DNA of 64,000 nucleotides from the NCBI GenBank assembly GCA_021018995.1, contig CM037587.1, positions 91,385,251 to 91,449,250 on the forward strand, given 5' to 3'. The notes beneath the pieces are model-generated. The model saw only the letters and a program-made list of their open reading frames with translations. It did not search any database and had not been told where the DNA came from. The translations under genes were made by a program, and so were the position numbers. Within the stretch, counting starts at the first letter, position 1; the number at the start of each line of letters is the position of its first letter. The DNA comes from Chloranthus sessilifolius (taxonomy: Eukaryota; Streptophyta; Magnoliopsida; Chloranthales; Chloranthaceae). Positions 3,053-64,000 of the stretch are shown one piece after another.

Positions 3053-4158
3053 TGATGGGGACATCGACAATGAAGGCCTAGGTTTCAGGCCGTACAAGGT
3101 GTACCGGCGGAAGAAGCAGCGACGAAGGAACCATGGAACGCAAAGATCCACCGAGGAAAGGCCTGAAGGATCAACCCAAAAGAAGGGCCCCTACCAGGTT
3201 CGCTCGAACGAGCATCCTCCTCGCTCGGGCGTGAGAGCTTCATAATCAAAGCCAAAATTCTCAGTCTGTTGTCACTCGAGCGACCCCTAGTTGTCTCTCA
3301 AGCGACCTTTGGTTCCCACTCGAGCGACCTTCCGTAAAGATTCCCGCTCGAGCGGGAACCAAATCCGCTAGAGCGAGTCACGTGACGAGATTGTCCTTTT
3401 TATCCTTTTTGTTTGTCTTTTCTTGTGTCAAATATAAGTTACTCTTTTAGGATAATATGGTACTTTTCTACTTTAGGGTTATTCCCATTTGTAAACACTA
3501 TAAAGTATATTTTGTAAGCCATTATTGGCACTTGTTGAAAATTAATGAAAGTGCATTGCATTTTGAGCTTGAGAGGAGCTTTGAAGAGTGGGTCTTCTTC
3601 CCCATGTGGGTTTGGTGTGCGGCCAAGGGTAACATGCCCATGTAATCTTTGATCTTCTCTTTACTCGTTCTTGTCTAATTTTTCCCATTTTCTTATTAAT
3701 CTCTTACATCCAATTTTCCCCTTTTTTAATTAATTGTCCCAATTCCATACCTTAGATTTAGAACAACCTTAATGTCCATCCTTGTGGATCGAATCCAATC
3801 TTTAGCCCGTCGATCCATGACCGTTGTTGGGCTCGAGCTTGTTCGATTTGTGTTGTTAATCGCGTCAATTCAAAAGTCATAGAGAGGAAATACCGATTCC
3901 ACCACGAACCACAATCGAAAGCCCTGATCTAGACGAAGCTAGAGTTTTATCTCTAGGGTCGCCTCTTCCTCATTTCCTAACGGATATCGCGCATTGGATT
4001 GGACCCTACTTAAATCTAGCATGATCACTCAAGCGGAATCCCGGGAAACCCTAAGGCATCACTTTAATTTGTGATTAACTGTTCAATTAATTAGTTTAAT
4101 TTCAACAAATTAGCATTTCATGGGCATTCACGTATTTTAGGGTCGTTGTCCCGCGTTA
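3053..4158 (+). repeat. 5' LTR of element A
   Basis: Starts TGATGGGGACATC, ends CCCGCGTTA; the partner LTR ends CCCGCGTCA. Between 3200 and 3376 it holds degenerate copies of the palindrome TCGCTCGAGCGA at 3200, 3221, 3272, 3294, 3316, 3344 and 3365, spaced 21, 51, 22, 22, 28 and 21 bp. A gag start follows about 125 bp after the LTR. Confidence 0.9.
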
Positions 4159-8928: not shown

Positions 8929-10064
8929 TGACAAGGACGCTGACAACGAAGGCCTAGGTTTCACGCTGTACAAGGTGTACCGGCGGAAGAAGAAGCGACA
9001 AAGGAACCATGGAGCGCCAAGATCCACCGAGGAAAGGCCTTAAGGAATAGCTAAAAAGAAGGGTCCCTGCCCAGGTTCGCTTGAGCGAGCATCCTTCTCG
9101 CTCGAGCGAGAGTGCTTTAGAATCAAAGCCAACATTCTCGGTCTATTGTCGCTCGAGCGAGGGAGCATCAGGATTTAAGGCCAAAACTTTCGGCCAAAAG
9201 TCACTCGAGCGACCCCTAGTTGTCGCTCGAGCGACCTTCCGTAAAGATTCCCGCTCAAGTGGGAACCAAATCCGCTCGAGCGAGTCACATGATAGGATTG
9301 TCCTTTTTATCCTTTTTGTTTGTCTTTTCTTATGTCAAATGTAAGTTACCCTTTTAAGGTAACATGATAATTTTCTATTTTAGGGTTATTCCCATTTGTA
9401 AACACTATAAAGCATATTTTGTAAGCCATTTTTGACACTTGTTGAAAATTAATGAAAGTGCATTGCATTTTGAGCTTGAGTGGAGCTTTGAAGAGTGAGT
9501 CTTCTTCCCCATGTAGGTTTGGTGTGAGGCCAAGGGTAAGATGCCCATGTAATCTTTGATCTTCTCTTTACTTGTTCTTGTTTAATTTTTCCCATTTTCT
9601 TATTAATCTCTTGCATCCAATTTTCCCCCTTTTTAATTGATTGTCCAAATTTCAAACCCTAGATCTAGAACAACCTTGATGTCCATCCTTGTGGATCGAA
9701 TCCGATCTTAGCTAGTCGATCCGTGACCGTTGTTGGGCTTGAGCTTGTTCAATTTGCGTCGTTAATTGCCTCAATTCAAAAGCCCTAGCTAGGAAATACG
9801 AATTCCACTGCGAACCACGATCGAACGCCCCAACCGAGATGAAGCTAAAGTTCTATCTCTATGATCGCCTCTTCTGCATTTCTTAACGGATCTCGCACGT
9901 CGGATTGGACCCTACTTGAATCTAGCATGATCACTCAACTGGAATCCCGCGAAACCCTAAGGTATCGCTTTAGTCTGTGATTAATTGTTCAATTACTTAG
10001 TTTAATTTCGGCAAATTAGCATTTCATGGGCATTCACGTATTTTAGGGTGGTTGTCCCGCGTCA
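8929..10064 (+). repeat. 3' LTR of element A
   Basis: Starts TGACAAGGACGC after the purine tract and ends CCCGCGTCA, followed by ACTTT. Exact TCGCTCGAGCGA copies lie at 9098, 9149 and 9223, with variants at 9077, 9201, 9251 and 9272. It differs from the 5' LTR by many substitutions and by an extra palindrome-bearing segment near 9149-9200, so the insertion is not recent. Confidence 0.9.
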
Positions 10065-25434: not shown

Positions 25435-25467
25435 ATTGGTATCAGAGCTCTTGGTTGAGTGGGAGCA

Positions 25468-29604: not shown

Positions 29605-30560
29605 TGATGGGAACGCCACATACATGGACATTGGATTCGGATCACATCGTTTCTATTGACGTCGGAAGAAGCGTAGAGGAAGCCCGAGTACCGTAGCCTC
29701 AGAGGAGAAACGGACACAAACCGCGAGGAGAACAACACCGCAGGGAATCCTCGCGTGAGCGAGCACTTAAAGTCACTCGAGCGACGATAATCCTCGCGCT
29801 CGCGAGCTACGGCGATGATTTCAAACACGCGAGCGATCACTTAAGCTCGCTTGAGCGAGCCCTCGCGCGAGCGATGATAATTATCGCTCGAGCGAGCTAC
29901 GGCACAGAATTTTATGCGAAAAATTCCTTTTTGTGTTTTATTAGTATTAGAACTCTTTTATTTCGAACTTAATTATTGGTAGCCTATATATAGAGGCTTG
30001 TAAAGACTTTTAATTAGTTGATTGATTATTTGAATGCTTTTATGCTTGAGTAATCTATGTCTGAGATGGGTTTGGTGTGAGGCCAAGGGAGTGATTCCCA
30101 AAGCCATTGTCATCTTCTCTATTCTATTTGCTATTTCTCGATCTGTGATTGCTTTCTAAAACCATAGCCTAAGTGTTTCCTTGTTTTCCCAAAACCCTAA
30201 ACATAGCCAACATCCGTTCTAAACCATAAGTCGATCCGAAAACCAAAGTCTATTGCAAACTGCAAATCCCTTTCACAACCCAACTTGGAATCCGTGAATC
30301 TACATCGAACCGAAGACGAGTGCCTAAGCTTGGAAAAAGCTAGAGTTCTATCTCTAGGCCGATCTCGCCTCGACTCGAAAAGTACTTGCACATCGGACTG
30401 AACCTTACGTGGATCGCGTGTAATTTACCCATCAAAATTTCTGCAAAACCCTAAAGGTATCAAAGATAATTTTGCGATTAGACTTGATTTAATTTCATTA
30501 ATTTCGACAAAATCTGCATAAAAATTATATTCCGCATTTTAGGGTCGTTGTTCCGCGTCA
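29605..30560 (+). repeat. 5' LTR of element B
   Basis: Starts TGATGGGAACGCC, ends TTCCGCGTCA. Palindrome derivatives of TCGCTCGAGCGA start at 29751, 29773, 29794, 29825, 29847, 29863 and 29884 (the last exact), with gaps of 22, 21, 31, 22, 16 and 21 bp. A TATATATAG box follows near 29984. Confidence 0.9.
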
Positions 30561-35280: not shown

Positions 35281-35299
35281 CTTTTTGGTCCAGGGGAAT

Positions 35300-36260
35300 T
35301 GACGGGGACGCCACATACATGGACATTCGATTCGGACCACATCGTTTCTATCGGCGTTGGAAGAAGTGTAGAGGAAGCCCGAGTGCCGTAGCCTCAGAGG
35401 AGAAACGGACACAAACCGCGAGGAGAACAACGCCGCAGGAAATCCTCGCTCGAGCAAGCACTTAAAGTCGCTCAAGCGACAATAATCGTCGCGCGCGCGT
35501 GCTATGGCGACGATTTCAGACGCACGGGCAATCACTTAAGCTCGCTCGAGCCAGCCCTCGCGTGAGCAATGATAATTTTCGCTCGAGCGAGCTACGGTAC
35601 GGAATTTTATGCGAAAACTTCCTTTTTGTGTTTTATTAGTATTAGAATTCTTTTATTTCGAACTTAATTATTGGTAGCCTATATATAGAGGCTTGTAAAG
35701 ACTTTTAGTTAGTTGATTGATTATTTGAATGTTTTTATGCTTGAGTAATCTATGCCTGAGATGGGTTTGGTGTGAGGCCAAGGGAGTGATTCCCAAAGCC
35801 ATTGTTATCTTCTCTATTCTATTTGCTATTTTTCGATATGTGATTGCTTTCTAAAACCTTAGCCTAAGTGTTTCCTTGCTTTCCCAAAACCCTAAACCCT
35901 TTTAAAACCCTAATTCAAACATAGCCAACATCCGTTCCAAACCTTAAGTCTATTGCAAATCGCAAATCCCTTTCACAACCCAACTTGGAATCCGTGAATC
36001 TATATCGGACCGAAGACGAGTGCCTAAGCCTGGAAAAAGCTAGAGTTCTATCTCTAGGCCGATCTCGCCTCGACTCGAAAAGTACTTGCGCATTAGACTG
36101 GACCCTACCTGGATCGTGTGTGATCTACCCATCAAAATTTCTGCAAAACCCTAAAGGTATCAAAGATAATTTTGTGATTAGACTTGATTTAATTTCATTA
36201 ATTTCGGCAAAATCTGCATAAAAATCATATTCCGCATTTTAGGGTCGTTGTTCCGCGTCA
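35300..36260 (+). repeat. 3' LTR of element B
   Basis: Starts TGACGGGGACGCC, ends TTCCGCGTCA. It carries the same palindrome cluster (35447-35590), an exact copy at 35579. It differs from the 5' LTR by scattered, mostly C/T and G/A changes and a small insertion near 35890-35910. Confidence 0.9.
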
Positions 36261-36478: not shown

Positions 36479-36755
36479 ATTATCATTGTCAAGATCCGCT
36501 GCTGTCCAAACCTGACGCCTTCGACAACCTTGTAGGACCAACAACAATGTAATCTGCTACTACCCAAAATCGACATCCTTAACCACCTACTGCCATAGAA
36601 TTAAATACAATCTGATCTGCTAATGCCGTAACGTTTCTTGACAATGTGTCACAACAGACCACAATATTCCCCAAAATTAGCAGGTTAGATCTTGACAATG
36701 GTACACCTACCTAATACACGAGAGAAGCACTTAGGAAATATATTCAAGCCACTAA

Positions 36756-43531: not shown

Positions 43532-43805
43532 ATGTTAGCGCTTCTCTCTCGGGGTGTCAGCGCATCTCCTCGTTATCGAGGTGTTAGCACTTCGCTATCG
43601 AGGTGTAAACGCCTCACTATCGAGATGTCAACACTTTTCTCCCGGGGTATCAGCGCCTCACCATCGAGGTGTCAATGCTTCACTCTCAGTGTGTCAACGT
43701 TTTGCTAACGGGGTATTAGCGCTTCGCCTCACTACCTGGGTGTCAGCGTTTTACTAATAGGGTGCCAACGCCTCACTATCGAAGTGTCAACGCTTCTCTC
43801 CTGAA
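43532..43805. repeat. Minisatellite, about 23-bp unit, about 12 copies
   Basis: The unit GTGTCAACGCYTCACTATCG, with variants, starts near 43532, 43556, 43583, 43605, 43628, 43650, 43672, 43697, 43718, 43742, 43766 and 43788. Reading frames across it give Ser/Arg/Cys-rich repeats that are by-products. Confidence 0.88.
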
Positions 43806-45190
43806 CTGCCAACTGTCACGGGGGCACAGCCCGACACCGGCTGTCATGCCCGTGCGGCGCCTCCCTGTCACAACAATGAGATCAGTCTAACCCTCAACCA
43901 ACTCTGAATAAAGTTTGAAGATTTAGAGGGCTTCTTTGGAATAGTGGCTCCTATACATAATTTTTTCCTACACAATTTTCCTCTACACATTTTCCCCTAT
44001 GCAATTTCCTTATGCACGATTTACACGATTCTTCAGGTAATTCATTAGTTCTTAATTTTCTGGTTCTAATTCTTATATTCTAAAACTAGTTTCTTTTTTT
44101 TAATTCTAGTTCTAGATTTAGATTCTAGCCCTCTAAGTTCTTAAATTCTAAATCTTAGATCTTAGGTTTTAATCTAAATTTCTAATTTACTAGCTCTAGT
44201 TCTTAATTACTAGAGCCAAGCCTTAGCTTTAGCTTCTTAATTTCTCTTTCTGATTTTAGGCTTTAAATTTTAGTTCATAGTTTCGATTCTAATTTTTTAG
44301 TCCCAAATTCTATTCTAAAATTCTAAAACTTAGGATTTTGATCTTCAATCTTTATCTCTAGGTTCTAAATTTTAGTTTCGATTTCAATCCCAGAATCATA
44401 GGTTTTTTAATTCTAGATTTCTTATTCATAGTTCTTAATTTTTTTAAATCTTTTAAAATTTATAATTTTGATCTCTAAATCTATAATTCCTAATTTTAAA
44501 ATCAAATTTTCAATCCCTAGCCATCCGATTTGCCCAAGGGAACTTACGGAGGATACTCGGAAACAGGGCCGATCCTCCTTAACATAACGGGCCAAAACCC
44601 TTTTTTTAGATTTTTAGTAAAATTAGTATATTTGCTTTAATTAGAATTTTAGTAGAATTAGCATATTTTTAATTAGTTAAAATTTTAGTAAAATTAACAT
44701 ATTTGTATTCCTAGTACAATTAGAAGACTTAATTAATTAGACCTTTAATAAGTTTAAAATATTTAAATTAATTAGACTTCTAATAAGATTAGAAGACTAG
44801 ATTAATTAAATTTCTAATAGGATTAGGAGACCTTTTTCAGACTCCTAGTAGATTAGGAGACCAAGTTAATTAAAATCCCAGTAGGAATAGAAAAATCAAA
44901 CTAGTTAGACTAAAGGCAACCCACAGCTGCTGACGTTCGCCGGCGGACGATTCAGTAAAGGAGTTCAACCTGCAAGCCCCCGCTCCCTTTAAAGCGTGAT
45001 CAGTAACGTGTTGCAGCGTCGATCAATATCTGCAGCTGGCGATCGCATCTTCTCAGGTATTCTTCATTTAGAATTTGTCTCTTTAATTTCAGCATTTAAT
45101 ATTTCCTAATTTATTACTCCATCATCGCCTTTGTCAGAGTCCACTTGGATCGAATTGGGTCATTCTTTCTGAGGACTGAAAGAAACTCAG
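43806..45190. repeat. AT-rich degenerate TCTAA/TTAGA repeats
   Basis: 44040-44520 is built from ATTCTAG/TTCTAAT-like words. 44610-44890 repeats an AATTAGAAGACTTAATTAAT-like phrase with changes, about six times. 43806-44040 and 44900-45190 show no recognised feature; the latter may be leader of element E. Confidence 0.55.
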
Positions 45191-48711: not shown

Positions 48712-50235
48712 TGTAGACACCCAAATTTGGCCCAAGGCCCGATCGACACATACTTTGAGAAGGGTGCACCCCCGAGCTTCCGAAAGCATTCCTAAAACTC
48801 TTAGGAATCAACCCCAACCTTCTCAGATCCCTTAGAACCCGTCCCGGACCAGTTTCTGAACCTTCCTAAGCAGTGGTTGGAAAGAGGAGTTTCAAATTTT
48901 ACACAAACCTCTGTTGGAGCTGAGTTATATACCATTGGAAAGAGGACTTTCCCAGCTTTTCAACAAGCTAAGAATCACTTCAATTGGAGTTGTATATCAA
49001 AAGTTATGACGATTTAACAATTAGGTTGTTTGACTCGATGTTGCCTGGTGCATGTATTACATGTGCCAAGCCATTTTTGGATAAAAAATGGCTTCGCGCA
49101 TCTAATACTTGCGCCAAGTATGGGTGGGACCCCCTGCGGGCTCCACACCTCCAGGCACTGTAGCTATGCTTGGCACATCTAATACATGTGCCAAACTTAG
49201 CTATAGTAACTAATGGTTTTTTGCTCGAATTTCACTATTAGGGTTTGACTTGTTGATCATTTCAAAGTTTAGGATGGATTTTATTAGGACTATTGCACCC
49301 ATGTTTACCCTATTTGCAATCCTCTATTCATTTGAAACCTCACCCTATCATCTACCATTAAACCTAATTCACACCTTTCTAAGCCTTTGAAACCCTATGA
49401 AACCTTAGATGTTAGGATTACCTAATTGCTAACCCTAATTAACCTCTAAGCACCCCCCTAACCCTCTCTTTTCCTATAAATAGAGAGGCACCCCCCTTGC
49501 AAATGGCTTAAAAAAAATCTAAAAGAGAGACAAGATTAAGAGAGACCTTTTCCCCCCTTTGGTGCGCCAATCCTATACAAATTCCATAATTGATCTTTGC
49601 CCTTTAAACCCCATTTTCCACCATTAATCTTGGAGATTTAGTTAGAACTACCCTCTAGCCTTCTTCCTCTACCTCTCAGCTACCAAGCCTTAGAGATTAG
49701 AGCCCGTCTCTTAACCCGTTTACTATCGAAAGCTCACCGGCAACGCTCTCGCGTGAAGGACCACATCGGTGCTACAAGGGCCCGAGAGCTCCGGCTCTCC
49801 CCTCTATTCCTTTACCTTCTTTGGCTTTTCCTCTATCCTAGAATTGAGTCGTTATGCTGCCCAAATTTTGGCAAGCGGGAACGGCTCAATAGGATCGGTG
49901 TGCCTTCGAGCAAGGGAAAGTGCCGCTCATTTTCTTTTCTTCTTATATATATAATTATATATATATATATATATATATTTTATATACATCCAAATAGCCA
50001 TAGTAGAGATCGCTTACGAGAGGATTCGTCGGGTGCCTAACACCTTCCCGATCGATAACCGAAGCTCCTACCCAAGAGCCTTTGGCATAGACCGGAATCA
50101 GAGTCATATTTGGCACTTTGGTGCATTTAATATTGATTTGGGTTTCTCGGGACACCAAAAGCTCAAGGTGGCGATTCTTTATTTTTCATACGAGTACATC
50201 GTCGTGATGGATCGTTAAAAATTCATGGTTGCACA
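48712..50235 (+). mobile_element. Solo LTR (TGTAGACACCC type) inserted at E's LTR boundary
   Basis: 1,524 bp, TGTAGACACCC...GGTTGCACA, flanked by GGGGG on both sides (48707-48711 and 50236-50240). TATA box TATAAATA at 49475-49482. Three quasi-palindromes lie upstream of it (49049-49070, 49093-49117, 49169-49195). An (AT)n tract is at 49950-49980. No internal coding follows, so it is a solo LTR. Confidence 0.8.
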
Positions 50236-50240
50236 GGGGG

Positions 50241-50907
50241 TGTGTTAATCTCTGAAAAGTATCACTTTTCACCCCTTAACCTGGCCTTTGATGAACCTTT
50301 GAGCTGGTTAATAATAATTTTTAAGTGTATTTGTGTAGATGACAGGATTTACAGCTTAGTGCAGCAATCCAACATTTTTATGCCAAGAAGAAAGAATTTA
50401 GAGCTAAGATGTGGGACTGATGGGTTTACATTGAATGCACCATGGTGGTTCACACCATTGGGGCCATTTTGCATGCATTGGTATCCTATAAGGCCCACTG
50501 AGAGAGAGAGAAGTGGAACCTAAGCACAGTGAAGTATTGCTACTTTGAACATTACAAACTGTAAAATCTGAAATCCATTGTTGAGCAGCTCTGTGCCTTC
50601 AAATAGCAACTTCTCGAGCAGCTCACACTCTCTTGCAGCAAGTCCACACTCAAGTACATCATGTGTGCAGCAAACTAGCATTCTAGCAGCTGCGTTGTAG
50701 CCTCAAAAGTACACTCGAGCAGTCCATAGAGTTGCTGCAATGAACTTGTCGAGCTAATGCCTGAAACCCCCATCCTGTCGAGCTCATTGTTGCAGCATAT
50801 CAAGCCGTCAAGTAGTTGAAACTAGCCTGTCGAGTTGCTGGCTGAAGTGCTGCGCTGGCTGGTGTAATTCAACCTGGCGAGCTGCTGAATGAACTTGGCG
50901 AGAACAT
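50241..50907 (+). repeat. 3' LTR of element E, left part
   Basis: Starts TGTGTTAATCTC immediately after the second GGGGG. Its right half (50580-50900) repeats GTCGAGC/CTCGAGCAG words (50614, 50715, 50749, 50778, 50830, near 50878). Interrupted by element D; the rest should lie after D's 3' LTR, outside the window. Confidence 0.6.
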
Positions 50908-52267
50908 GGTGATCTGTGCCAAAATATGATTATATTTCGTACCTTCATTCCTACATTTAGCTATCCGATGAAAGCTATCTGACTGCTATTATATAGTTTT
51001 AGTGGTTTCAGGTATTTTCAACCATTGGATCTTGAAAGAGCATAAAAGAGGGTAATTAAGAGTTACACAAGAACATTGGACAAAGAAGCCAGCAGAAGCA
51101 CTAAAATCCGTGAAAATGATTGATTGGCCCAGCATCCACCAGAAGAATGAAGATGTTACCTGTCCTTGTCAATCGATTGACAAGAATGACAGCTTTTCCC
51201 CTTTATTTTAAAATTTGAATTAATTCAATCGATTAATATTTGAAATCAATCGATTGAATTCAAATTCAAATGATTTCTCCAAAAAGAGGATTTGAACTCA
51301 ATCGATTGAGAATTGAATTTCAATCGATTGAGCCTATTTTGGAAGTTGTCCTGCCCGCTCCCTATAAAAGCAATGCTATGGCTTAAGGTTAGGGGGTTCT
51401 CTGCTAGTAGAATTTTCTTAATTTTTTTTATAGCTTTTCTTTATAATTTTTGAATCATAGTTTGTAATTAGGAACAAAGTATTGTAAGGAGAGATCTTTT
51501 GATAAATAAAAGTGTATGTTTAGATGATGGCTTTTGGTTTGTATCATGCGTATAGCTCGAGGATGAGAGGCTAAACCCCCTCATTCAAGGAGGAAGCGAC
51601 CCCTAGATGAGTCACTACTTATTGTTAATTCTATAATTTCTTATTATTATCATTGAATCATTCTGTTAAGAAGTGTGTGCTTAATAGAATATCATCGAAT
51701 GCTCATTTATGGCCGTCGATCTTGATTATCGACAACCATAAAAGGGTCATTCCATATAGATTTATTCCTGCAGGCCGATCTAAGCTACCGAGTGATTGAT
51801 TCTTACTATTGTGATTTTGAATTTGAGATACGTTATGCCTTTCACATAATTCATGCTGCATTAGGATGAGTCATAGTTTTTGGATAGGGTATGCCGGATC
51901 AACAATCACATTCTTTACGATTCATTTTTCTTCTTTATAAATGATGGTATATTGGTGTGGTATGAAATCGTGTGATTAATTGTAAAGAAGTTACAAATCC
52001 AGGGTTAGCAAACTCCTTGATCATCTCTTAATTGTCATTTTCTTTATCATAATTTGTTCTTGCATAGATTAATTTACGTTTATTGTTCTAGCATCGTGTG
52101 ATAATTGCTTAGCAATTCAACTTTCTCTCCCTTAGTATTTCTTTGGACATTTTTGTTCTCTTTAAATTTAATTTAATTATACACTTTTCTGTGGGTACGA
52201 CACTCTTGATTTTACCGTATCACAACTAATCTTGTGCACTTGCAAGGATACATTTTAAAACCGATCA
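50908..52267 (+). repeat. 5' LTR of element D
   Basis: Begins TG(GTGATCTGTGCC) at 50908-50910 and ends CCGATCA. U3 holds TCAATCGATTGA at 51169, 51246, 51298 and 51320 and a one-base variant at 51225. CTATAAAAGC, a TATA box, follows at 51362. Compared with the 3' LTR, the pair around 51169 has lost one 22-bp unit. Confidence 0.88.
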
Positions 52268-52273
52268 AGTTTT

Positions 52274-52291
52274 TGGTGTCGTTGTCGGGAA
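52274..52291 (+). other. Primer-binding site of element D
   Basis: TGGTGTCGTTGTCGGGAA, close to the TGGCGCCGTTGCCGGGGA site used by Athila elements (thought to pair with tRNA-Asp), six bases after the LTR end. The three differences are C-to-T-type changes or equivalent. Confidence 0.7.
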
Positions 52292-52342
52292 AGCGATGCA
52301 ATTTTATTGATTTTTAGGAGATTTGTGTTTTCGGATTGACAG

Positions 52343-52481
52343 TCAATCGATTGAATTCATTGTGTCAATCGATCGACTATGATTCTGTGTTTTCTTTGTT
52401 CTGCTTGGTTCACTATTTCTGTCAATCGATTGATCTATAATAATCAATTGATCGACTTTTAAGCGTGACCACTTTTCAATT

Positions 52482-52535
<54 letters not shown>

Positions 52536-53045
52536 AATTTTGTGTTCAAAATTTTGAATTTTGAATTTCAAAGTTGAATTTCAAATTTAAAATTTGAACT
52601 TTTTAATTTTTAAATTTCAATTTTAAGACTTTTGAATTTTAAAATTTTAAAATTTTAAATTTGAATTTCAAATTTTGATCTTGATTTTCGAATTTTTGAA
52701 TTTTGAAAAAAAAAAAAAAAATCTATTCGGATTTTGACTACTGTCCACTATAGTAGTCAATCAATTGATTCTTCAATATCAATCGATTGAGTTCTGGGGT
52801 TTTAGTGTCAGTTTGTCACTGTGTAAACCTTTGGGATTCTATCAATCGATTGACCTTTTTGTTTCAATCGATTGACTAGACTTCTGCTGTTTACAATTTT
52901 AGTGGTATTTCCTATTCTGTCTAGCCTGATTTTTGAACCTCAATCGATTGATTTTGACAAATCAATCGATTGACTGGTAAAGTCATCTTTCGGAACACTG
53001 TTGTGTTTGTTTCAATCGATTGATTCTGTTAATTCAATCGATTGA
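52343..53045. repeat. Palindromic dyads in the leader of element D
   Basis: TCAATCGATTGA (nine exact copies) and near copies form six pairs with starts 22 bp apart: 52343/52365, 52422/52444, 52757/52779, 52842/52864, 52940/52962, 53012/53034. The ten-base spacers all differ. Between them lie a (TA)n tract (52487-52531) and an AAATTT-rich stretch (52540-52720). Confidence 0.92.
52487..52531. repeat. (TA)n microsatellite
   Basis: About 22 TA units in the leader of element D; similar shorter tracts lie at 49950-49980 and 61938-61966. Confidence 0.95.
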
Positions 53046-53225
53046 ACCTGAGTTACTTCATTGTTGGGTTTATTGTGGACTCGATAATCCTTGTCTTGGG
53101 TGTGTTGGTGCATGAGCTTTACTTAATCTCATCACCCACATTTACAATCGTTGAATCGTGAAATTGAAAAGTATTGCAGAGTGAATCATAGAAATCATAT
53201 GCTTCAACGTCATCACACTGAAATC

Positions 53226-54890
53226 ATGGCAGATTAAAGACAAGGACGGAATGGGAATAATCATGAAAACAACAATGAAAATGAAAATGAGAATCATGAT
53301 GAGGTCCCACAACATTGGAGCAATACAATGAACCCGGTCTTTATGAGGATCAGGATATAATCCTTCATGCTCCCATCCCAGGAAATCATTATGAATTTAA
53401 GTCGGCAATGATTCAAATGTTGCCAATTTTCAACGAGTTGAGCAATGAAAATCCATATACTCACTTGAACGAGTTTATTGCGGTGTGTAAAATATTCAGA
53501 GTATATAATGTCTCCGATGAGATAGCAAAGTTACGCCTTTTTCCCTTCTCTCTAAGAGATAAGGCGAAAACTTGGTTCTTTTCCTTATAGCCAAAATCTA
53601 TCCGGAGTTGGACGGAGTTTCAATGTGAATTCTTGATGAAATACTTCCCCATGAGCAAAACCAATGAGTTGCATCAGAAGATTCTGATATACGCCCAACA
53701 ACTTACTGAGATATTTCATGAATGTTGGGAATGTTTTACAAAATTAGTCAAAAGTTGCCCTAATCATCATATTTCAAGGTGGCAACAAGTCCAAAGTTTT
53801 TACAACGGATTGATTCTAGAAGAAAGACGCATGGTTGATACACCTTGCGAGGGATCATGTGCTACGAAAGAGGCTGAAGAAATTTGGACATTGTTTGAGA
53901 GATTATGCCAAACTTCAATACAAAATGAGACATTGGGGCGAACTAACTTGAATATGACAACTAAATCCCATGTGTTGACAAAAGGTGGGTTGTATGATGT
54001 CAACAATAATACCTCAGATTTATCAACAAAAGTGGATATGTTGTCTAAATAAATTAACATGTTGTTAGCCGCAATAAAACAAGCTCAAACTCCCATCACC
54101 CCCACTGTCTGTTCAATTTGTGAACACTCAAGTCACATGGCTATTGAGTGTCCAGCAACTCTGATGATCTTTCCTGACGAACCTACTCCTCAAGAGCAGG
54201 TGACTGTAACTCAATTGTACCATCAGCAAGATAGGAATGTGTACTCTAACACCTATATCTGGAATGGAAAAATCACCCTAACTTAGATGGGGAGGATCAA
54301 ACCAAACTGGACAGGTGAACCAGCAATACAGATCTAACACATCGAGTGGACAACAGGGCTTTCGTCCACAACAGAATTTTAACTTTCAACATAATTCGAA
54401 TTATCATCACCTAAATTTTGAGTACCGGAAAAATCAGAATTTCAATCAAGCTAATACTTCCAGTTCGAGAGATTCGGATTTAAAAGCGAAGATCATGCTG
54501 AACGTGCAAGCTTTTCAACAATAAAATATGCAAGCCCTTCAGCAGATGTTGAAGGACCAATTTGGTCAATGGACTAATCAAATGAATCAAAGAGAGGAGG
54601 GAAGGCTTCCCAGCCAACCCATCAATAACCCTCGAGACCAAACTCCGTCTGATGAAGGACCCTCAACTAGCCATCAGTTGAAAGTTGTCACCGTGTTAAG
54701 AGGTGGGCGTGTGATTGATAATCAAGTGAAAATTCCAGTGAAATCAAAAGAAGAAAAAGAAACTGATGGTGTTAGTTCGGCCTTTTCAACTGTTGAATTA
54801 AAACAATTGCCTGAGTCACTCAAATATGCTTTTCTAGGACCGCATGAAATGCTTCCAGTAATAGTTTCATCAACATTATCGAAAAAGTAA
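53226..54890 (+). pseudogene. Element D gag (broken)
   Basis: ATG at 53226 is followed by a stop three codons later. Further frames give the Athila gag core: IQMLPIFNELSNENPYTHL (about 53409), LRLFPFSLRDKAKTWF (about 53532), then a TAG, WTEFQCEFLMKYFPM (about 53611) and a CCHC knuckle (CSICEHSSHMAIEC, near 54112). A Gln/Asn-rich linker and a VTVLRGGRVID motif (near 54688) follow. Stops lie near 53589, 54049, 54284 and 54522. Confidence 0.82.
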
Positions 54891-57565
54891 GAGCATGATT
54901 TGATGAAGGTGTTAAAAGATCATAAAGAAGCAATTGGATAGACTTTAGGCGACCAAAAAGGGATTGATCTATCAGTATGTATGTGCAAAATATCTGAAAG
55001 ATGATAGCACACTATTGAGGGAGCCATAAAGACGACTTAGCCCAAACATGAAAGAAGTCGTATTGAAAGAGATCATCAAGTTGCTCAATGCTGAAATCAT
55101 CTATGTAATCTCTGATAGTGAATGGATAAGTCCGGTTCAAATTATTCCCAAAATGTCAGGGGTTACAGTGAAAGAAACCACTAAAGGGGAATTAGTACCT
55201 ACGCGTAAGACTATTAGGTGGCGCGTCTGCATCGATTATCGAAAATTGAACACAGTCACTAGAAATGATCATTTTCTCCTTCCATTTATTGATCAAATTC
55301 TTAAGGAACTAGCAGGGCAGGAGTTCTACTATTTTCTTTATGGATATTCGGGGTATAACTAAGTGTATGTATTTCCAACTGATCAAGAAAAGACAACATT
55401 TACTTGTCCTTATGGTACATTTGCATATAGCAGAATGTCATTCGGCCTTTGTAATGCTTCGCCCACCTTTCAGCGGTGTATGTTAGCTATATTTTCTTAT
55501 ATGATTGATAAATTTATCGAAATATTCATAGATGACTTCTCTGTCTTTGGAAAGACCTTTGAATTGTGCTTGCATTACCTTTGACAAGTGTTGCAATATT
55601 GTGTAGAATCCAATCTTATTCTAAGCTGGGAGAAGAGCCATTTTATGGTTCGACAGGGAGTAGTTTTAGGACACATCATATCAAGAAAAGAAATTAAAGT
55701 TGACTTAAAGTGTTCGCCAAATTCGATCATTTTTGGGGCATGCTGGATTTTACAGACGATTTATCAAGATTTTAACAAGGTCGCTAAGCCATTATGTAAC
55801 TTGCTTGGAAAAGATGTTCCGTTTGAATTTGATGAAGACTGCATGAAAGCCCTTTTGAAATTGTGAGAGTTATTATCAAATGCTCCGATAATCCAACCTC
55901 CGGATTATTCGCTCCCTTTTGAACTTATGTGCGACGCATCGGACTATGCTATTGGAGCAATCTTAGGGCAAAGGGTAGGTAAATTATCTCATGTGATTTA
56001 CTACGCCAATAAGACGATGATTGATGAGCAACTAAATTACACCACAACCGAGAAGGAATTATTAGTTGTGGTGTATGCGTTGGATAAATTTCGTTCTTAT
56101 TTGCTCGGATCCAAAATAGTGGTCTTTTCAGACCACTCTGCGTTGAAATATCTTTTGACGAAAAAAGATACAAAACTAAAGTTGATCCGATGGATCCTGC
56201 TCCTCCAAAAATTCAACTTTGAAATTAAAGATGAAAAGGGGGTTGAAAATGTTATCGCTGATCATTTGTCACGGATTCTACCTGAAGAATCATCTGTGTC
56301 AAAAACCATCCATAACATATTCCCAAATGAGCAATTAATGGCAATAGATACAATAGCTACAAAAATTCTTGGTTTGCGAACATCATAAATTATTTGGTCA
56401 CTGGCAAAATTCCTATGCAATAGGGTGGAAATGATAAGAATCTCTTTTTACCCCAGATCAAATACTAATTTTGAGATGATCCACACTTGTTCAAATTTTA
56501 TTCATATCAAGTCATCAGAAGATGCATACCAAAAGAAGAGCAGCTGAGTATCATAAATTTCTGTCATGCTGGGGCCTGTGGATGTCATTTTGGAGGACAA
56601 AAGACTGCACAGAAAATTTTTCAAAGCGGATTTTATTGGCCCTCCATTTTTTGAGATACAGCAAAATTTTGTAAAGAATGTCAATGATGTCAAAAGCTCG
56701 AAAATATTTCAAGACGAAATATAATGCCATTGAACCCAATTTTGGTTATTAAAATTTTCGATGTGTGGGGGATCGACTTCATGGGTCCTTTTCCCCCATC
56801 ATTCGGTTATCTATATATTTTGGTAGTCGTCAACTATGTTTCAAAATGGATGGAAGCTGTGGCAACCCAGTTAAACGACCATAAAGTGGTGGTCAAGTTC
56901 TTGAAGGAAAATATATTTAATAGATTTTGGATTCCCCGAGCAATCATTAGTGATGGCAGTTCACACTTCTGTAATAGTCATTTTACGAAATTAATGAAGA
57001 AATATGGTGTCACACATAAGGTCGCAACACTATATCACCCGCAGAAAAGTGGCCAAGTTGAGGTGTCAAATCAAGAGATCAAGCAGATTTTAGAAAAAAT
57101 TGTGCGACCAGATAAGAAAGATTGGTCAAATCGTTAATCTGATACTCTCTGAGCATATTGCATTGTATTTAAGACACTGATTGGAATGTTGCCCTTCAGA
57201 ATTGTGTATGGGAAAGTTTGTCACCTCCCAGTCGAATTGCAACATAAGGTATTCTGGGCAATAAAGAGATTTAATTTTGACATGCAAGAGGCAGGTTCCA
57301 ATCGCAAGCTACAATTGAACGAATTGGAAGAGCTACACTGTGATGCATATAAAAATTCGAGGCTGTACAAGAAGCAATACAAGAGATTGCACGATCAATC
57401 AATTTTTCGAAAGAAATTTCACATAGGACAATAGGTTTGGTTGTTCAATTCCAAACTTAAACTCCATCCTGCAAAACTGAAGTCGAGATGGGAAGGACCC
57501 TTCCATGTCATATCTACTACCGCACACGGTGCAATTGAGATTAGGGATCTTAAGGATAATTGAAT
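54891..57565 (+). pseudogene. Element D pol: RT, RNase H, integrase; protease missing
   Basis: gag runs almost directly into the region before RT (LPESLKYAFLGPHEMLPVIV, then a KDHKEAIG block), leaving no room for a protease with a D[ST]G site. RT: RWRVCIDYRKLN near 55217, FGLCNASPTFQRCM near 55441, FIDDFSVFG near 55528. RNase H: MCDASDYAIGAIL near 55927 to IADHLSRI near 56250. Integrase: zinc region near 56540-56700, core Asp in GIDFMGPF (near 56770), Asp in SDGSSHF (near 56950), Glu in [11 protein letters not shown] (near 57052), C-terminal block to about 57560. Stops or shifts near 54950, 55030, 55362, 55584, 55866, 56388, 57137 and 57434. Confidence 0.85.
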
Positions 57566-57765
57566 TTTCAAGGTGAATGGGCAACGGCTTAAACCAATAT
57601 TTGAACCAATGACCCAAATGCAAATTGAATCAACATACCTCAATGACCCAGAAAGATGACATTCGAATGGTCGAGCTGTCGACACATAAACTCAGCACTT
57701 CCTGGGAGGCAACCTAGTGTGCAGCTTAATTCTTACTTCTTTGTGGTAGAATTTGTAAGTCTCTC

Positions 57766-58241
57766 TCAATCGATTGATTTTGAGAAAAGTCAATCGATTG
57801 ACTTTATAGTTTGTTCAATTGATTGAGAGTTACCTTTCTCAATCGATTGATATTTCTATTCAAGCCATCATTAGGCAGTCATTCCACATCTTTTCTGTTA
57901 TCAAACCGTTCGATGCTACATGCATGTCAATCGATCGGCAATCCCTTGTCAATCAATTGATATATTATTGAAACACCCGGCATTCTCGGAATCCATGTGT
58001 CAATCGTCTCGTATTTTCAACTGTCGGATAAGTCAAACGTCGTGTTAATGTCAATCGATTGATATTTTACTCTCAATCGATTGATATGACAAAACTACTG
58101 ACTCTCTCCGTTTCCCAAGAAGTCAATTGCCGCGCCTTTTCAAGAAACGCCTTCAACCTTCAGCTGTGCATTGAAGTTTCAAGCCTTCGCGACGCCTCGA
58201 GATAATGTCAATCGATTGACATTTCATTTTCAATCAATTGA
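57766..58241. repeat. Palindromic dyads between pol and the accessory ORF
   Basis: Exact TCAATCGATTGA at 57766, 57790, 57839, 58051, 58073 and 58208, plus variants at 57815, 57927, 57949 and 58230. Pairs with 22-bp spacing: 57927/57949, 58051/58073, 58208/58230. Pairs 57766/57790 and 57815/57839 have 24 bp. Confidence 0.92.
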
Positions 58242-58378
58242 TATTATGGTTCCTCCAAACTACATGCAAGTGGATGTCAATTTAAGGAACAGCCCGTGGT
58301 CCCTTCTTCCTCAACTCTCTGCACATTCGGCCAATCGACCTTGTTCATCTCTCCAAATATTCCCCTCGTACGATCGAA

Positions 58379-59542
58379 ATGGCAGCACTTGGGCCCCAGA
58401 TTTGCCGACCACCTCGTCCTGACAATAATCCCATGCGAATACCTAATAATGATTGCGTGGACCGACAGTGTCAAACCGAGAACTTCTTCGATCTTACAAA
58501 ATTTCGTCGTATCGCCGAAGCTGCGCGTTCCATCGAGTTTATTGAAGTCTTGCATCTTGAAATGTTACTCGCACCCCCTCCTATCGACATGCCCTTACGT
58601 CTAATACGACTTTTCTATCAAAACATGGAGTGGGTGTCGGCATCGCAATCCCCGACTGGTTTTACGTTCATCCGCATTCGAATCGATAATTGGTCGTACA
58701 ATTTACACACCGCTGATCTCGCCCGTGCATTTAATTTCTACATTGTTCGTCCATTGAATCATCATATCGATCCGGCCGTGAACCTCAGCCAAGAGATCAT
58801 GATAAATAATATATGTGGTGGTAGACACGGTTCTGGATTGTCAACGAAAAGAGCAGTCTTGTCAATGGACATACTGTTTTGGGACATTGTCATGTCTAAT
58901 AACTTGCTTCTGTATGGAACCAAAAGTGAGAGGACAAAGAACCGGGTAGCAACACTGTATGCAGCCCACACTAATATTTGGTTTGATGCATCTGGTTTAA
59001 TGCTTGATGAAATGTGGCGGTGTCACAACAACATAGCTGTCACCACTGCGCAATGCAAACGAGAGGCTATTCTTCTCCACTTTCCTCACTACATCATGCA
59101 TCTTTTGGATCAGACCGGGTGTCCAATTTTTGATGATGAAGTAATGGGCGTCATGCAGTTCTATCACTATGACACAAATGTGTGGGACAAGAGTATTAAA
59201 GCCATCATAAGGAATGCACCGCAGCCCCTCGATATTGGCGAGATGCCACCTCCTCCTCTCCAACCAAACCCCGCACAGCACCAACGTGACAACTTACGTC
59301 GACCTTGTCCTGAAGAGGTCCTTGATTTTAATGCCGAGAAAGCAGTCACACGCCTAGAGGCGCGGATGAACGAGTTGAGTACTATGGTTGGAGGTATCAA
59401 TCAGCAGTTAAGATTTCAAAGTTCTCTCCTCATGCGGATTGCACGAGAATCATTCCCGGTGCAAGTCGATGACTTCATCACAGGAGCGCAAGCGACGATG
59501 GATGGAGAGGAAGATGTTGAACATAATGATAATGATGAATAG
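58379..59542 (+). CDS. Accessory ORF of element D, 387 aa, uninterrupted
   Basis: The longest open frame in the window. ATG at 58379 lies about 140 bp after the last dyad, and the stop is TAG at 59540. The centre (residues about 75-240) resembles the putative plant transposon protein domain found in post-pol ORFs of Athila-like elements: LIRLFYQNMEW, then a RAVLSMDILFWDI and ILLHFPHYIMHLL region. Assignment is by pattern only. Residues about 285-300 are Pro-rich, about 320-360 could form a coiled coil (RLEARMNELSTMVGG), and the tail is acidic (EEDVEHNDNDE). There is no signal peptide or clear membrane segment, so it does not look like an envelope protein. It is flanked on both sides by palindromic dyads. 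Molecular function unknown. Confidence 0.75.
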   Translation: MAALGPQICRPPRPDNNPMRIPNNDCVDRQCQTENFFDLTKFRRIAEAARSIEFIEVLHLEMLLAPPPIDMPLRLIRLFYQNMEWVSASQSPTGFTFIRIRIDNWSYNLHTADLARAFNFYIVRPLNHHIDPAVNLSQEIMINNICGGRHGSGLSTKRAVLSMDILFWDIVMSNNLLLYGTKSERTKNRVATLYAAHTNIWFDASGLMLDEMWRCHNNIAVTTAQCKREAILLHFPHYIMHLLDQTGCPIFDDEVMGVMQFYHYDTNVWDKSIKAIIRNAPQPLDIGEMPPPPLQPNPAQHQRDNLRRPCPEEVLDFNAEKAVTRLEARMNELSTMVGGINQQLRFQSSLLMRIARESFPVQVDDFITGAQATMDGEEDVEHNDNDE

Positions 59543-59762
59543 TTTGTTTGTCTTGTGCTTAGTTTGTTACTTTGTTTAGATGTGATAGGTTTCTGTTTGT
59601 GTGCTAGATCAATCATAGGTTGTGATAGGTTTTAGTTTATTTCAATTAATTTGGAGTATGTATGTGTGCTAAAATAATCAAATCAAATTAGGTGAATGAA
59701 ATATTTTAGATGAATGGTGTTATCTCTCTGTGTACTCTCAAACTGTTGCCCAATTTCATCAG

Positions 59763-60128
59763 TTAATCGATTGAAATTTATTCTTCAATCGATTGAGGCA
59801 TTTGGTGTGTTTTGATCTCACAATGACAATAATTTCTGTCGATCGATTGAAAAATGGTTTTTCAATCAATCAACTTTGACCTAAGTTCACATTAATTGTG
59901 TATGAATCTTTCTGATTTCAAGTTGATTGATTTGAATATGGCAATGCACGTTGGATAGAGTCAATCGATTGAACTGAATAGTTCAATCGATTGATCCAGA
60001 TTGGAATTCCAAAGGGAATAGAAAGTTTCCAACATTAATTCGATTGCATATATTGAAAATTCTCTGTGAACAGCAAGTTTTGGTCTGCACCAAGTCAACC
60101 TTTCCAAATATAGTTCTCAATCGATTGG
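59763..60128. repeat. Palindromic dyads between the two accessory ORFs
   Basis: Pairs 59763/59785 and 59961/59983 (22 bp) and a degenerate pair 59839/59862 (23 bp). A single variant ends this group at 60117. Exact 12-mers: 59785, 59961, 59983. Confidence 0.9.
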
Positions 60129-60296
60129 ATGATACAATTTCCGAAGGAATCAATTGTGTGCCCCCGAAATCTAAATTTCATTTTATCTTTAGATACTGTG
60201 TTTTAGGAAAATTTTGCTTTATTTAAACAACCGTAGGATAGTTTTTCTAAATAGCTCCCTTAGTCAAAAATCAACTGTCCTCCCAAACCTTGTGTT

Positions 60297-60611
60297 ATGG
60301 ATTCAATCAAGTATCACACTCGATCGATGGTTAGGAGATTGGCAGAGCCGGCGCGGAAACATACACGATATCACTCACCACGACCACCTCTCGACTTGTT
60401 AAATCATGAGGTCGTTGATTTAGAATCGACTTCGCCGCTGTCGACTTCGTCAAAATCACCCGTTGAATTGATGTCCATCGATTCACCGAAACCACCACCA
60501 TCCCCACCTTGTGCCCCAATTCCTCCACCAGGTGGCATCGGCATCTCAGAAGAAATGTGGATGATGATGTTTCCAAAGTCGAAGCCAGGGATGGCTTCCG
60601 ATGATGGCTAA
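60297..60611 (+). CDS. Small Pro/Ser-rich ORF of element D, 104 aa
   Basis: ATG at 60297, stop TAA at 60609. The N-terminal third is basic (RSMVRRLAEPARKH). The middle is Ser/Pro-rich (STSSKSPVELMSIDSPKPPP, then PPSPPC), with PPPGG and WMMMFP near the C terminus. No family recognised. Its place between two dyad groups and its uninterrupted frame suggest a second accessory ORF, but a chance frame cannot be excluded. Confidence 0.4.
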   Translation: MDSIKYHTRSMVRRLAEPARKHTRYHSPRPPLDLLNHEVVDLESTSPLSTSSKSPVELMSIDSPKPPPSPPCAPIPPPGGIGISEEMWMMMFPKSKPGMASDDG

Positions 60612-61017
60612 AGGCTAGGATTTAGTTTTAGGTTTTAGATTTCACAGTCTTTTTAGATTTTATGTTACTTTTCTAACGTCTTAGTCTAGTTTCCTTTAAT
60701 TTATGCACTAAAATAGGTTCTTTTTGTTTTCAATAAGTGTCGTAGATTGCACATAATTAATGGAATTTTAGTTTAGTTAAATATCTTTGTTTAAATTGTT
60801 TAGATGCTCAAATCACAAATATTTTTCACCTGGTCTACCTTTTGGTTTTCGGTTGCATTTAACAGGTTTGGGGATCCCATACACCTTCAAAAATCAAACC
60901 AATGAGGACATTGGATACAACAGGTTTGGGAGTGAGAAGTTCAATTTAGAGTCTTTTGAAAAAAAAAAAAAAAAAAGAGGTTCTGGGACTGTTCTCGGAT
61001 TTTGAAAAGTGTATCAG

Positions 61018-61206
61018 TCAATCGATTAAACCCAGGGAGTCAATCAATTGATTGATAACCATTAACCCAGATGCATTCAGCAGGTTAAGGGCAGTTAATC
61101 GATTGATTTACAAAAATCAATCGATTGACTGCAAATTTGTAAGCCCAATAACCGACTGGAAGCATGCATCAATCAATCGATTGAAACCATTGAGTCAATC
61201 GATTGA
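61018..61206. repeat. Palindromic dyads 3' of the small ORF
   Basis: Three successive pairs with 22-bp spacing: 61018/61040, 61095/61117, 61173/61195. Exact 12-mers: 61117, 61173, 61195. Preceded by an A run at 60960-60976. Confidence 0.92.
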
Positions 61207-61930
61207 TTGATAACCAGTAAACTCATAAATTCCGAAATATGTTTTCATGACCTTTAAGTGTTAATGCCCGAAAATTTTTGTAAACTATCATCGTGCCATG
61301 ATAAAACTATAAATGCTCATGATGCTTAATATAATGCAAGTTTTAATGATGATTTCACAGTCCATATCCAGAAACTCTGGCATCATTACCATGCTTTATT
61401 TCCAAAAATCTGGGAGTTTGGTCTAAAAACTTGAATCCAAGGATTTCAGTGGAGACTAAAACCCAGAGAACTTTAGAACCTTTCCTCGTTCTTGATGAGT
61501 GTGGTTAAAATTTGAAGTCTTGTTCAGTTCATACTTGATTGTTATAATCTCATACGCTCATCTCGGTTTGTGTATTTGGCAATGTATCAAGATATTAAAA
61601 CTCATTGTGTTTGAATTCGAAATAAATTGGCATCATTATCACCTTGAAAAGAAATGATCGAAGGCCCTCTTTGGCCTGTTTGTGCTTAAAATGTCCCACC
61701 TTATACTCAATTATCATTTAGCACTTTTTTCTTTTTTAAACCGTGATGAAAAAAATTCAGCCCTAATTATTTCTTCAGTAAGTTATATTAACCATGCCCT
61801 CACGAGTTTGAAAATGCAAAAACCCTACCCTTGTTACCTCTGAGAAATTCAAGATGACAAAAAGTGAGGGAATCGAGAGGCATGATTGTGACACTTGTGG
61901 GAGAAAAAAATAAAAAGGTAGAAAATGAGA

Positions 61931-61970
<40 letters not shown>

Positions 61971-62861
61971 GATTTCAAAATGAAGAGCAAAAAGGAGTAG
62001 AAAGAAAAGAAAGTTGAGAAGAAGCAAAAAGAAAATTTCTGAAAAATTGGCAAAATAAAGTGAAAATGAGAAAATCAAATTGTGTTTTTGTTTCCGGTTT
62101 CTCAAAGAAATTTGATCTCCGATTTCCCTTTCTTTCTTAAGCCTTTTTACCCAAGCCCCGTTACAACCTTGAAAAAATCCTTCTTAATCTAATCATGAGT
62201 GATAAATGCCTTGTCGAGAATGATAGTGCAATGCCTATGGTGTGTGGTATGACATGCTAGATACACAAATATCTTTCTTTATGAGACTTCTTTTTCATTA
62301 ATGAACCGTGCTTCTTATTTCATGTGAGACCTCCTTATTTGCATTATAGTTCTCTCTCACATGTGTGTGAAAAGTAACCCAGATCAGAGCAATTTTGTTT
62401 TGAGCGCATATCCACGGTGAGGATTGAGTCAAGACATGGAGTCCAAAAGATTCCTAGTTTGGACTTACTCCCTGATGGAAGAATTTTTAGCAATGGTAAG
62501 TACACGACACTCTGGGCATGAATCATGAGTCATCGAAAAAACAATGCATTGAATTAATCTGAATGAGCATTGATAAGATTAGCGTGGCCGGGAGCATCTT
62601 ATAAAAATTTTGTGGACATTTAACGATCTAAGGGCATGACAATAATTCAAGAATTTATTAGTTTATGAAGTTTGTAGGTATCTTCACTGAAAACCTTCAA
62701 AAGACAACTCCTTCACTAGGGATCACCTAGGGGTTTAAAGGCTTATTGCATATGCTAGATGCAATCGTGTTCCCTACGAAAGTAGCATCCATTTTCTTTG
62801 TTAATTGTTAGTTATTTTTCATTCTTTTTGCTCGAGGACTAGCAAAGTATAGGTTTGGGGG
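61207..62861 (+). other. Non-coding 3' tail and polypurine tract of element D
   Basis: AT-rich, no conserved frame, and no dyads. It has an (AT)n tract at 61938-61966 and ends with GCTCGAGGACTAGCAAAG and the tract GGTTTGGGGG before the LTR. The last 200 bp match the equivalent tail of element E. Confidence 0.7.
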
Positions 62862-64000
62862 TGTTATCTATGCCGAAATATGATTATATTTCGCACCTTA
62901 ATTCCTACATTTAGTTATCTGATGAAAGTTATTTGACGGCTGTTGTATAGTTTTCGTGGTTTCAGGTGTTTCCGATCATTAAATCTTGAAAGAGTATAAA
63001 AGAGGATAATTAAGGGTTACACAAGAACATTGGACCAAGAAGCCAGCAAAAGCACCAAAATCTGTGAAAATAATTTATTGGCCCAGCATCCACCAGAAGA
63101 ATGAAGATGTTATATGTCCTTTGTTAATCGATTGAAAACCAAATATCAATCGATTGACAAGAATGACAGCTTTTCTCCCTTTATTTTCAAATTTGAATTA
63201 ATTCAATCGATTGAATTCAAATTCAAATGATTTCGCCAAAAGGAGGATTTGAACTCAATCGATTGAGAATTGAATTTCAATCGATTGAGCCTATTTTGGA
63301 AGTTGTCCTGCCCGCTCCCTATAAAAGCAATGATATAGCTTAGGGTTAGGGGGTTCTCTGCTAGTAGAATTTTCTTAATTTTTTTTATAGCTATTCTTTG
63401 CAATTTTTGAATCATAGTTTGTAATTAGGAACAAAGCATTGTAAGGAGAAATCTTTTGATAAATAAAAGTATATGTTTAGATGATGGCTTTTGATTTATA
63501 TCGGGCATGTAGATCGAGGATGAGCAGCTAAACCCCTTTATTCAAGGAGGAAGCAACCCCTAGATGAGTCACTGCTTTATTGTTAATTTTATAATTTTTT
63601 ATTATTGTCATTGAATCATTCTGCTAAGAAGTGTGTGCTTAATAGAATATCATCGAATGCTCATTTATAGCCGTCGATCTTAGTTATTGACGACCATAAA
63701 AGGGTCATTCCATCAAGATCTGTTCCTATAGGGCGATCTAGGCTGCCGAATGATTGATTTTTACTGTTGTGATTTCGAATTTGAGATACACTATGTCTTT
63801 CACATAATTCATGCCGCAGTAGGATGAGTCATAGTGTTTGGATAGGATATGTCGGATCAATAATCACATTCTTTACGATTCATTTTTCTTCTTGATAAAT
63901 GATGGTATATTGGTGTGGTATGAAATCGTGTGATTAATTATAGAGAAGTTACAAATCTAGGGTTAGCAAACTCCTTGATCATCTCTTAATTATAATTTTT
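62862..64000 (+). repeat. 3' LTR of element D (truncated by window)
   Basis: Starts TGTTATCTATGCC after the purine tract and matches the 5' LTR to the window end. Palindromes lie at 63124 (variant), 63146, 63203, 63255 and 63277. It keeps the first pair that the 5' LTR lost, but has lost the 21-bp unit present at 51225-51246 of the 5' LTR. Confidence 0.88.

Follow-up and report, generated by a model that had tools for sequence, protein, structure and literature searches.

Short motifs repeated densely in non-coding DNA are known both from plant long terminal repeat (LTR) retrotransposons and from VANDAL elements, which are DNA transposons. Among the former, the closest described system is that of the Sireviruses, 13 of which carry palindromic repeats upstream of the TATA box and upstream of ENV (Bousios et al., 2010; PMC2829016). 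Each element has 8-32 of these boxes, which show dyad symmetry and are CpG-rich, with clusters that define CpG islands; most of them are found ahead of TATA in the upper half of the LTR, or upstream of ENV. They are called Sirevirus-specific and absent from the classic retrotransposons studied there, and the Tnd-1 box, ACAATCGATTGT, is the sole exception to their CGG-CCG core (PMC2829016). The cis-regulatory regions of several transposable element families are likewise arrays of repeats that are sometimes palindromic (PMC5311732, PMC10760457). In VANDAL21, the protein VANC21 has YAGTATTAY as its target, and VANC proteins carry DUF1985 (PMC5735166). Here we analyse a stretch of 64,000 nt from Chloranthus sessilifolius (the window), in which one LTR retrotransposon, element D, carries a 12-bp palindrome, TCAATCGATTGA, in pairs whose starts lie 22 bp apart, and two chromovirus elements, A and C, carry another palindrome, TCGCTCGAGCGA. 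Each family statement on D, A or C rests on one copy.

Results

The window contains 29 exact copies of the palindrome TCAATCGATTGA, all of them within 51169-63277, which reproduces the count of the first-pass annotation. When up to two mismatches are allowed, 54 sites are found in the window, 48 of them inside D, and 17 pairs in D have starts exactly 22 bp apart, at the same 17 starts that had been annotated. Other distances up to 30 bp are few at this threshold (21 bp once, 24 bp twice, 25 bp once and 23 bp never); those of 4 bp (three), 26 bp (three) and 30 bp (one) all come from the overlapping shifted matches at 61044, 61169 and 61199, and admitting three mismatches adds a single 23-bp pair, 59839/59862. 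When 48 sites were placed at random within the non-coding blocks that hold them, the mean number of pairs at 22 bp was 0.58 and the maximum 6 in 20,000 trials. Among close neighbours, with shifted matches excluded, 17 of 21 stand at exactly 22 bp (P ~7e-22 if spacings of 12-40 bp are equally likely), and leaving aside the LTR copy and a possible duplicate gives 15 of 19 (P 4e-19). First-order Markov sequences built from the dinucleotides of D held on average 0 exact sites and 1.8 sites with up to two mismatches (maximum 5; 60 simulations). The register also emerges from a motif-free count of repeated 7-mers, in which a lag of 22 bp ranks top in D (80; next 17).

The 10-bp spacers of the 17 dyads have a mean pairwise identity of 3.08/10, the same as shuffled letters (3.08/10). 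The sites and their distance have therefore been kept and the spacer sequence has not, as the first-pass annotation had proposed. To compare flanks, sites were masked and 19 bp of flanking sequence was used for each of 136 dyad pairs: the highest value in shuffles, 12, is surpassed by two pairs (51298/63255, which is the LTR copy, and 61018/61173) and equalled by two; seven pairs lie above the 99th percentile of the shuffles, where 1.4 would be expected. This flank similarity makes a weak trace of shared ancestry, or old common origin, of the dyads possible. Recent tandem duplication of one 22-mer is rejected for most of D.

These comparisons bear on the proposal that the boxes have no function and owe their spread and persistence to slippage, template switching or gene conversion among identical 12-mers. 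The duplicate-like pair 61018/61173 and the excess of similar flanks agree with it, as do the two LTRs of D, which differ by one unit of 23 bp and one of 21 bp at two box positions, each unit being bounded by a box. Recent slippage, however, would copy the spacers too, yet these differ as shuffled ones do, and the proposal leaves unexplained both the absence of boxes from gag-pol, the third open reading frame (ORF) and R-U5 and the recurrence of 21-22 bp steps with a different palindrome in A and C. Since single units come and go between the LTRs, the persistence of pairs rather suggests selection, and we regard a functionless origin as improbable.

The sites of D are confined to U3 upstream of TATAAA, the leader between the primer-binding site (PBS) and gag, the gap between pol and the third ORF, and 59763-61206 after the third ORF (Table 1); none of the 48 falls in gag-pol, the third ORF, R-U5 or 61250-62860. 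From the start of the last box to a TATA-like sequence the distance is 43 bp in D, 134 bp in A and 101 bp in C, equal in both LTRs of each element. Perfect 12-bp palindromes, counted without reference to any motif and compared with shuffles, are in excess in the leader (19 vs 0.63, partly from AT repeats), the pol-ORF3 gap (6 vs 0.15), the two U3 regions of D (5 and 6 vs 0.16 and 0.25), the region from the third ORF to the polypurine tract (PPT; 12 vs 1.29) and the 3' U3 of A (3 vs 0.07), and show no clear excess in gag-pol (3 vs 1.49) or the third ORF (0 vs 0.32). The observed/expected ratio of CpG is 1.2-1.9 in eight of nine box regions and 0.86 in the env-PPT region of D, against 0.69 for the window; GC content in D is just 0.26-0.38.

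Table 1. Coordinates of element D and of the box clusters in D, A and C (positions in the window; ORF, open reading frame; PBS, primer-binding site; PPT, polypurine tract).
Feature	Position	Strand	Description
5' LTR of D	50910..52267	+	~1358 bp; ends placed by eye, at the TG that agrees with the start following the PPT and at the CA preceding the PBS
U3 box cluster, 5' LTR of D	51169..51331	.	5 sites; pairs at 51225 (21 bp) and 51298 (22 bp); TATAAA at 51363
PBS-like stretch of D	52274..52291	+	resembles Asp-tRNA type
Leader box cluster, PBS to gag	52343..53045	.	12 sites forming 6 dyads, every one 22 bp
Broken gag-pol pieces of D	53633..57137	+	gag 53633, RNase H-like 55927, integrase core 56724; zero boxes
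Box cluster, pol to third ORF	57766..58241	.	10 sites: three 22-bp dyads and steps of 24, 25, 24
Third ORF of D	58379..59542	+	387 aa, intact; weak PF20167 match under the Pfam cut-off; zero boxes
Box cluster 3' of third ORF	59763..61206	.	dyads 59763, 59961, 61018, 61095, 61173 and single or weak sites
3' LTR of D, cut by window end	62864..64000	+	boxes 63124-63288, including dyads 63124 and 63255; TATAAA 63320
U3, 5' LTR of A	3200..3376	.	7 TCGCTCGAGCGA-type boxes, up to 2 mismatches; steps 21, 51, 22, 22, 28, 21
U3, 3' LTR of A	9077..9283	.	6 boxes, up to 2 mismatches; steps 21, 51, 52, 22, 49
U3, 5' LTR of C	29751..29895	.	7 boxes, up to 3 mismatches; steps 22, 21, 31, 22, 16, 21
U3, 3' LTR of C	35446..35590	.	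6 boxes, up to 3 mismatches; steps 22, 21, 53, 16, 21

This distribution is also relevant to the main rival of a DNA-bound module, namely RNA structure. Two self-complementary 12-mers 22 nt apart would form a hairpin in the transcript, with a stem of 12 bp and a loop of 10 nt, copies could pair within or between genomic RNAs, and the array would then serve to compact the RNA, to dimerise or package it, or as a source of small RNAs. By general LTR biology, transcripts should contain the parts in which the sites lie, among them the leader and, at the 3' end of the RNA, the U3. With a 10-nt loop the 12-bp hairpin has a computed stability of ~-13.7 kcal/mol, and LTR regions rich in palindromes are hotspots of small RNAs in maize Sireviruses (PMC5311732, PMC10760457). 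Computed stability is nevertheless nearly flat from a loop of 9 nt (-13.8) to one of 15 nt (-13.3) and slightly better for loops of 4-8 nt (-14.3 to -14.8), and folding alone therefore does not select a 10-nt loop; hairpin energy as the origin of the spacing is unsupported by these values. Single sites occur, the arms of a hairpin need not be palindromes of one fixed sequence, and the 17 dyads lack compensating arm changes, although neutral decay would not be expected to show any. A single self-complementary consensus across unrelated dyads is expected for a dimer and is not required for a hairpin. On these grounds we consider RNA structure an unlikely explanation.

A similar spacing is found with a different palindrome in the two chromovirus elements, A (3066-10062) and C (29605-36260), in which chromodomains were matched and which are 73% identical internally. 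TCGCTCGAGCGA, with five exact copies, is the next commonest 12-mer palindrome of the window with more than two kinds of letter, and it is located in the U3 of A and C. In the 5' LTR of A, four of six steps are of 21-22 bp at up to two mismatches (P 1.5e-4); at up to three mismatches, where the steps in A are again those of Table 1, P is 5e-5 in this LTR and 0.017 in the 3' LTR of A, 1.5e-4 in the 5' LTR of C (four of six steps) and 0.0015 in its 3' LTR. In the count of repeated 7-mers, lag 22 ranks second in A (10, with 11 for lag 44). If five of six base pairs suffice, the 5' U3 of C holds 7 palindromes against 2.1 in shuffles (maximum 6). An LTR-like fragment at 12990-13210, with 76% identity to the LTR of A over 113 bp, has palindromes of its own ~20 bp apart (by eye, a perfect one of 18 bp at 13029), upstream of a TATA-like sequence. 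Chromovirus C itself splits the 3' LTR of a copia element at 25033-36481 (RVT_2, LTR of ~405 bp).

The first-pass annotation had read 22 bp as about two helical turns that place both sites on the same face of the DNA. The fixed 22 bp does not look like simple helical phasing: pairs at 31-33 bp are absent from D and longer gaps are unphased. A gap of 49-57 bp between pairs recurs, in eight of 15 cases in D (rough null 1.2, 99th percentile 4) and in four of seven in A and C together, again unphased helically; these gap lists include sites with three mismatches and omit the 313-bp gap and the gaps of the 3' LTR of D.

Element D is an old LTR retrotransposon of the Ty3/gypsy type: its RNase H-like domain precedes the integrase core, which is the gypsy gene order. 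Its layout and its primer site, which resembles the Asp-tRNA type, suggest the Athila lineage; the anatomy would fit the features of that lineage, namely an Asp-tRNA-like PBS, an extra ORF between pol and the 3' LTR, and long LTRs. The alignment of the two LTRs begins at 50909 and 62863, and the second reaches or passes the window end, so that the end at 63288 given by the first-pass annotation falls short. In the alignable part, 94 of 1112 aligned positions differ (73 transitions, 21 transversions; Kimura two-parameter distance (K2P) 0.045 per LTR). The 15 near copies of the palindrome carry 17 changes, all transitions and 11 of them C>T or G>A, which would fit decay of methylated cytosines (the tally omits 61044, 61169, 61199 and 60474 as overlapping or isolated). 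From the K2P of 0.045 we calculate that post-insertion decay alone would give ~24 changes over 44 sites, with sites bearing three or more changes uncounted; because the 17 seen are not above this expectation, nearly all sites may have been exact in the parent at insertion.

The third ORF, which its position suggests is env-like, matches PF20167 weakly and no other Pfam family up to an E value of 5; one protein search, of unclear plant coverage, gave 2169 candidate homologues and none at E <= 1e-3. Its product could be imagined to bind the boxes over the non-coding parts of its own element and to counter silencing, as VANC21 does for VANDAL21. The frame is intact with box clusters on both sides, the layout resembles that of VANC targets, where a short family-specific motif is dense mainly in non-coding regions (PMC5735166), and Sirevirus linker boxes are found only where ENV is present (PMC2829016). 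Intactness is, however, no significant sign of selection (neutral decay would leave no new stop with P 0.18, indels ignored), and the weak PF20167 match leaves D without a DUF1985-type VANC protein in the Pfam search. VANC21 motifs, moreover, stand in one orientation, often as tandem repeats, and not as 22-bp palindromic dyads (PMC5735166). A and C have boxes although the chromodomain end of their pol abuts the 3' LTR and leaves no room there for a third ORF. A self-encoded binding protein thus has little probability in our judgement.

Other features lie in or near D. A second intact ORF, of 104 aa (60297-60611), follows the third ORF, has no Pfam match up to E 5 and holds the two-mismatch site 60474. 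Just upstream of D, repeated TCGAG words are seen by eye at 50600-50905, possibly another U3 that hosts the D insertion. The stretch 48521-50280 is what remains of another element: its PPT region is like that of D, and it has an LTR from ~48713. By eye, three long, imperfect palindromes of the type TTGGCACAT...ATGTGCCAA are present in its U3; a count of even-centred palindromes gave no excess in the remnant. A degenerate tandem array with a 22-bp period (TATCGAGGTGT...) occupies 43529-43813 and belongs to no recognised LTR.

Discussion

We consider it probable, at roughly 0.6, that the boxes form a DNA cis-regulatory array bound by paired dimers of a nuclear factor. The first-pass annotation had proposed a cooperative site for a symmetric protein, and this stands as the best explanation. 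The many steps of 21-22 bp that A and C show with a palindrome of their own strengthen it; the binding itself, with its cooperativity and any activation, is what we infer. At every 12-bp palindrome a nuclear factor with two-fold symmetry would bind as one dimer, and pairing at 22 bp would bring two dimers into contact and so yield tight binding at paired sites. Clusters upstream of TATA would then drive transcription of the element, and those in the leader and on either side of the third ORF could act as further enhancers or internal promoter elements and may protect the non-coding parts from silencing by keeping them open. A host-encoded factor is more likely than an element-encoded one, because A and C lack room for a third ORF yet have a similar U3 layout.

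Several observations weigh against this array of paired dimers. A promoter would not usually have boxes spread into the leader and beyond the third ORF, and the longer gaps show no significant periodicity of 10-11 bp (lowest P 0.07, n = 7). The one class of factor compared does not match: the homeodomain-leucine zipper (HD-Zip) site CAATNATTG, which has one central base (PMC4862318), occurs 0 times in D against 37 occurrences with two central bases, and so has the wrong half-site spacing. The evidence from A and C is also uneven. With up to two mismatches, weaker subsets give two of five steps in the 3' LTR of A (P 0.015), two of four in the 5' LTR of C (P 0.012) and one of three in its 3' LTR (P 0.12); lag 22 falls outside the top ten of C in the 7-mer repeat count; and perfect palindromes show no clear excess in the 5' U3 of A (1 vs 0.12, maximum 2) or in the 3' U3 of C (1 vs 0.17, maximum 3), nor in the 5' U3 of C (1 vs 0.12, maximum 1). 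Finally, A and C are related, the LTRs of one element are copies and the motif was chosen from the same window; the two elements are at most two further observations, partly dependent.

A broader idea is that different lineages of plant LTR retrotransposons share a grammar and not a sequence, each keeping its own CpG-centred palindrome with the same 21-22 bp pairing and a gap of ~50 bp between pairs, and that one class of nuclear complex reads the pair geometry while the letters drift in an arms race with silencing. We offer this tentatively and think it rather unlikely. If the register is functional, it would provide a directly testable binding module for plant retrotransposons, of which, to our knowledge, few activators are known, and the fixed pair distance with a free spacer gives a powerful means of finding the protein. 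In 2016, Bousios et al. reportedly described LTR regions of maize Sireviruses that are rich in palindromes as hotspots of small RNAs. A functional register would link such palindromes to a wider rule that includes gypsy elements.

Searches for relatives covered the literature and sequence collections. Soybean Athila-like elements reportedly carry many TAATCGATTA palindromes. Nothing relevant to TCAATCGATTGA or TAATCGATTA appeared among titles, and the literature searched, mostly by title and start of abstract, held no boxes of this kind in plant gypsy elements and no 22-bp register. In viral contigs the full dyad pattern gave no relatives, and a bare AATCGATT pair gave 29 stretches with 2-10 copies of AATCGATT each, among which no comparable array was seen (L004, with 10 copies, is a 15-bp tandem repeat); matches to the integrase (20 by pattern) or the RNase H protein (three) included no relatives. 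The exact 12-10-12 dyad does occur in two stretches of a prokaryote genome collection, at 5233-5266 of L031 (Geothrix rubra) and at 3649-3682 of L030 (a metagenome-assembled genome of Acidobacteria). By predicted gene starts it is intergenic in both, and in L031 both divergent flanking genes match TetR_N; L030 is closely similar in sequence, its flanking genes being TetR-type by eye only. This dyad has the same geometry as in D, but it is bacterial, likely an operator unrelated by descent.

The first-pass annotation knew of no description of such a module. That holds in part: the 22-bp register, the leader location and boxes in gypsy elements are undescribed in the literature searched, whereas for the Sireviruses, which are plant LTR retrotransposons, palindromic boxes repeated in non-coding regions have been published, including ACAATCGATTGT in Tnd-1 (PMC2829016), so that the kind is partly known. 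VANC21 resembles D in having a family-specific short motif dense in the non-coding regions of a plant transposon, but its target motif is non-palindromic and keeps the same orientation, often in tandem repeats (PMC5735166). The maize Sireviruses share with D the clustering of palindromes in the cis-region of the LTR, but are copia elements with a different motif, CACCGGACNNNGTCCGGTG (PMC5311732, PMC10760457).

Sireviruses at large are Ty1/copia elements, whereas D has the Ty3/gypsy order and A and C carry a chromodomain, and the Sirevirus CGG-CCG core is in neither TCAATCGATTGA nor TCGCTCGAGCGA. The parts of PMC2829016 consulted describe for Sireviruses no leader boxes and no fixed pair spacing, and they place linker copies after ENV in only 2 of 79 cases, whereas D has many after its third ORF. 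Against the Sirevirus figure of at least 8 palindromic copies per element, D has 48, and A has 13 and C 9 over two LTRs, all at up to two mismatches; per LTR, the 6-7 boxes of A and 4-5 of C fall short of that figure, which counts one LTR plus linker. The likeness to the Sireviruses (PMC2829016) lies in short palindromes upstream of TATA, with clusters in U3 and between pol and ORF3 in D and in U3 only in A and C, and it extends to the letters, as the Tnd-1 box ACAATCGATTGT and element D have CAATCGATTG in common.

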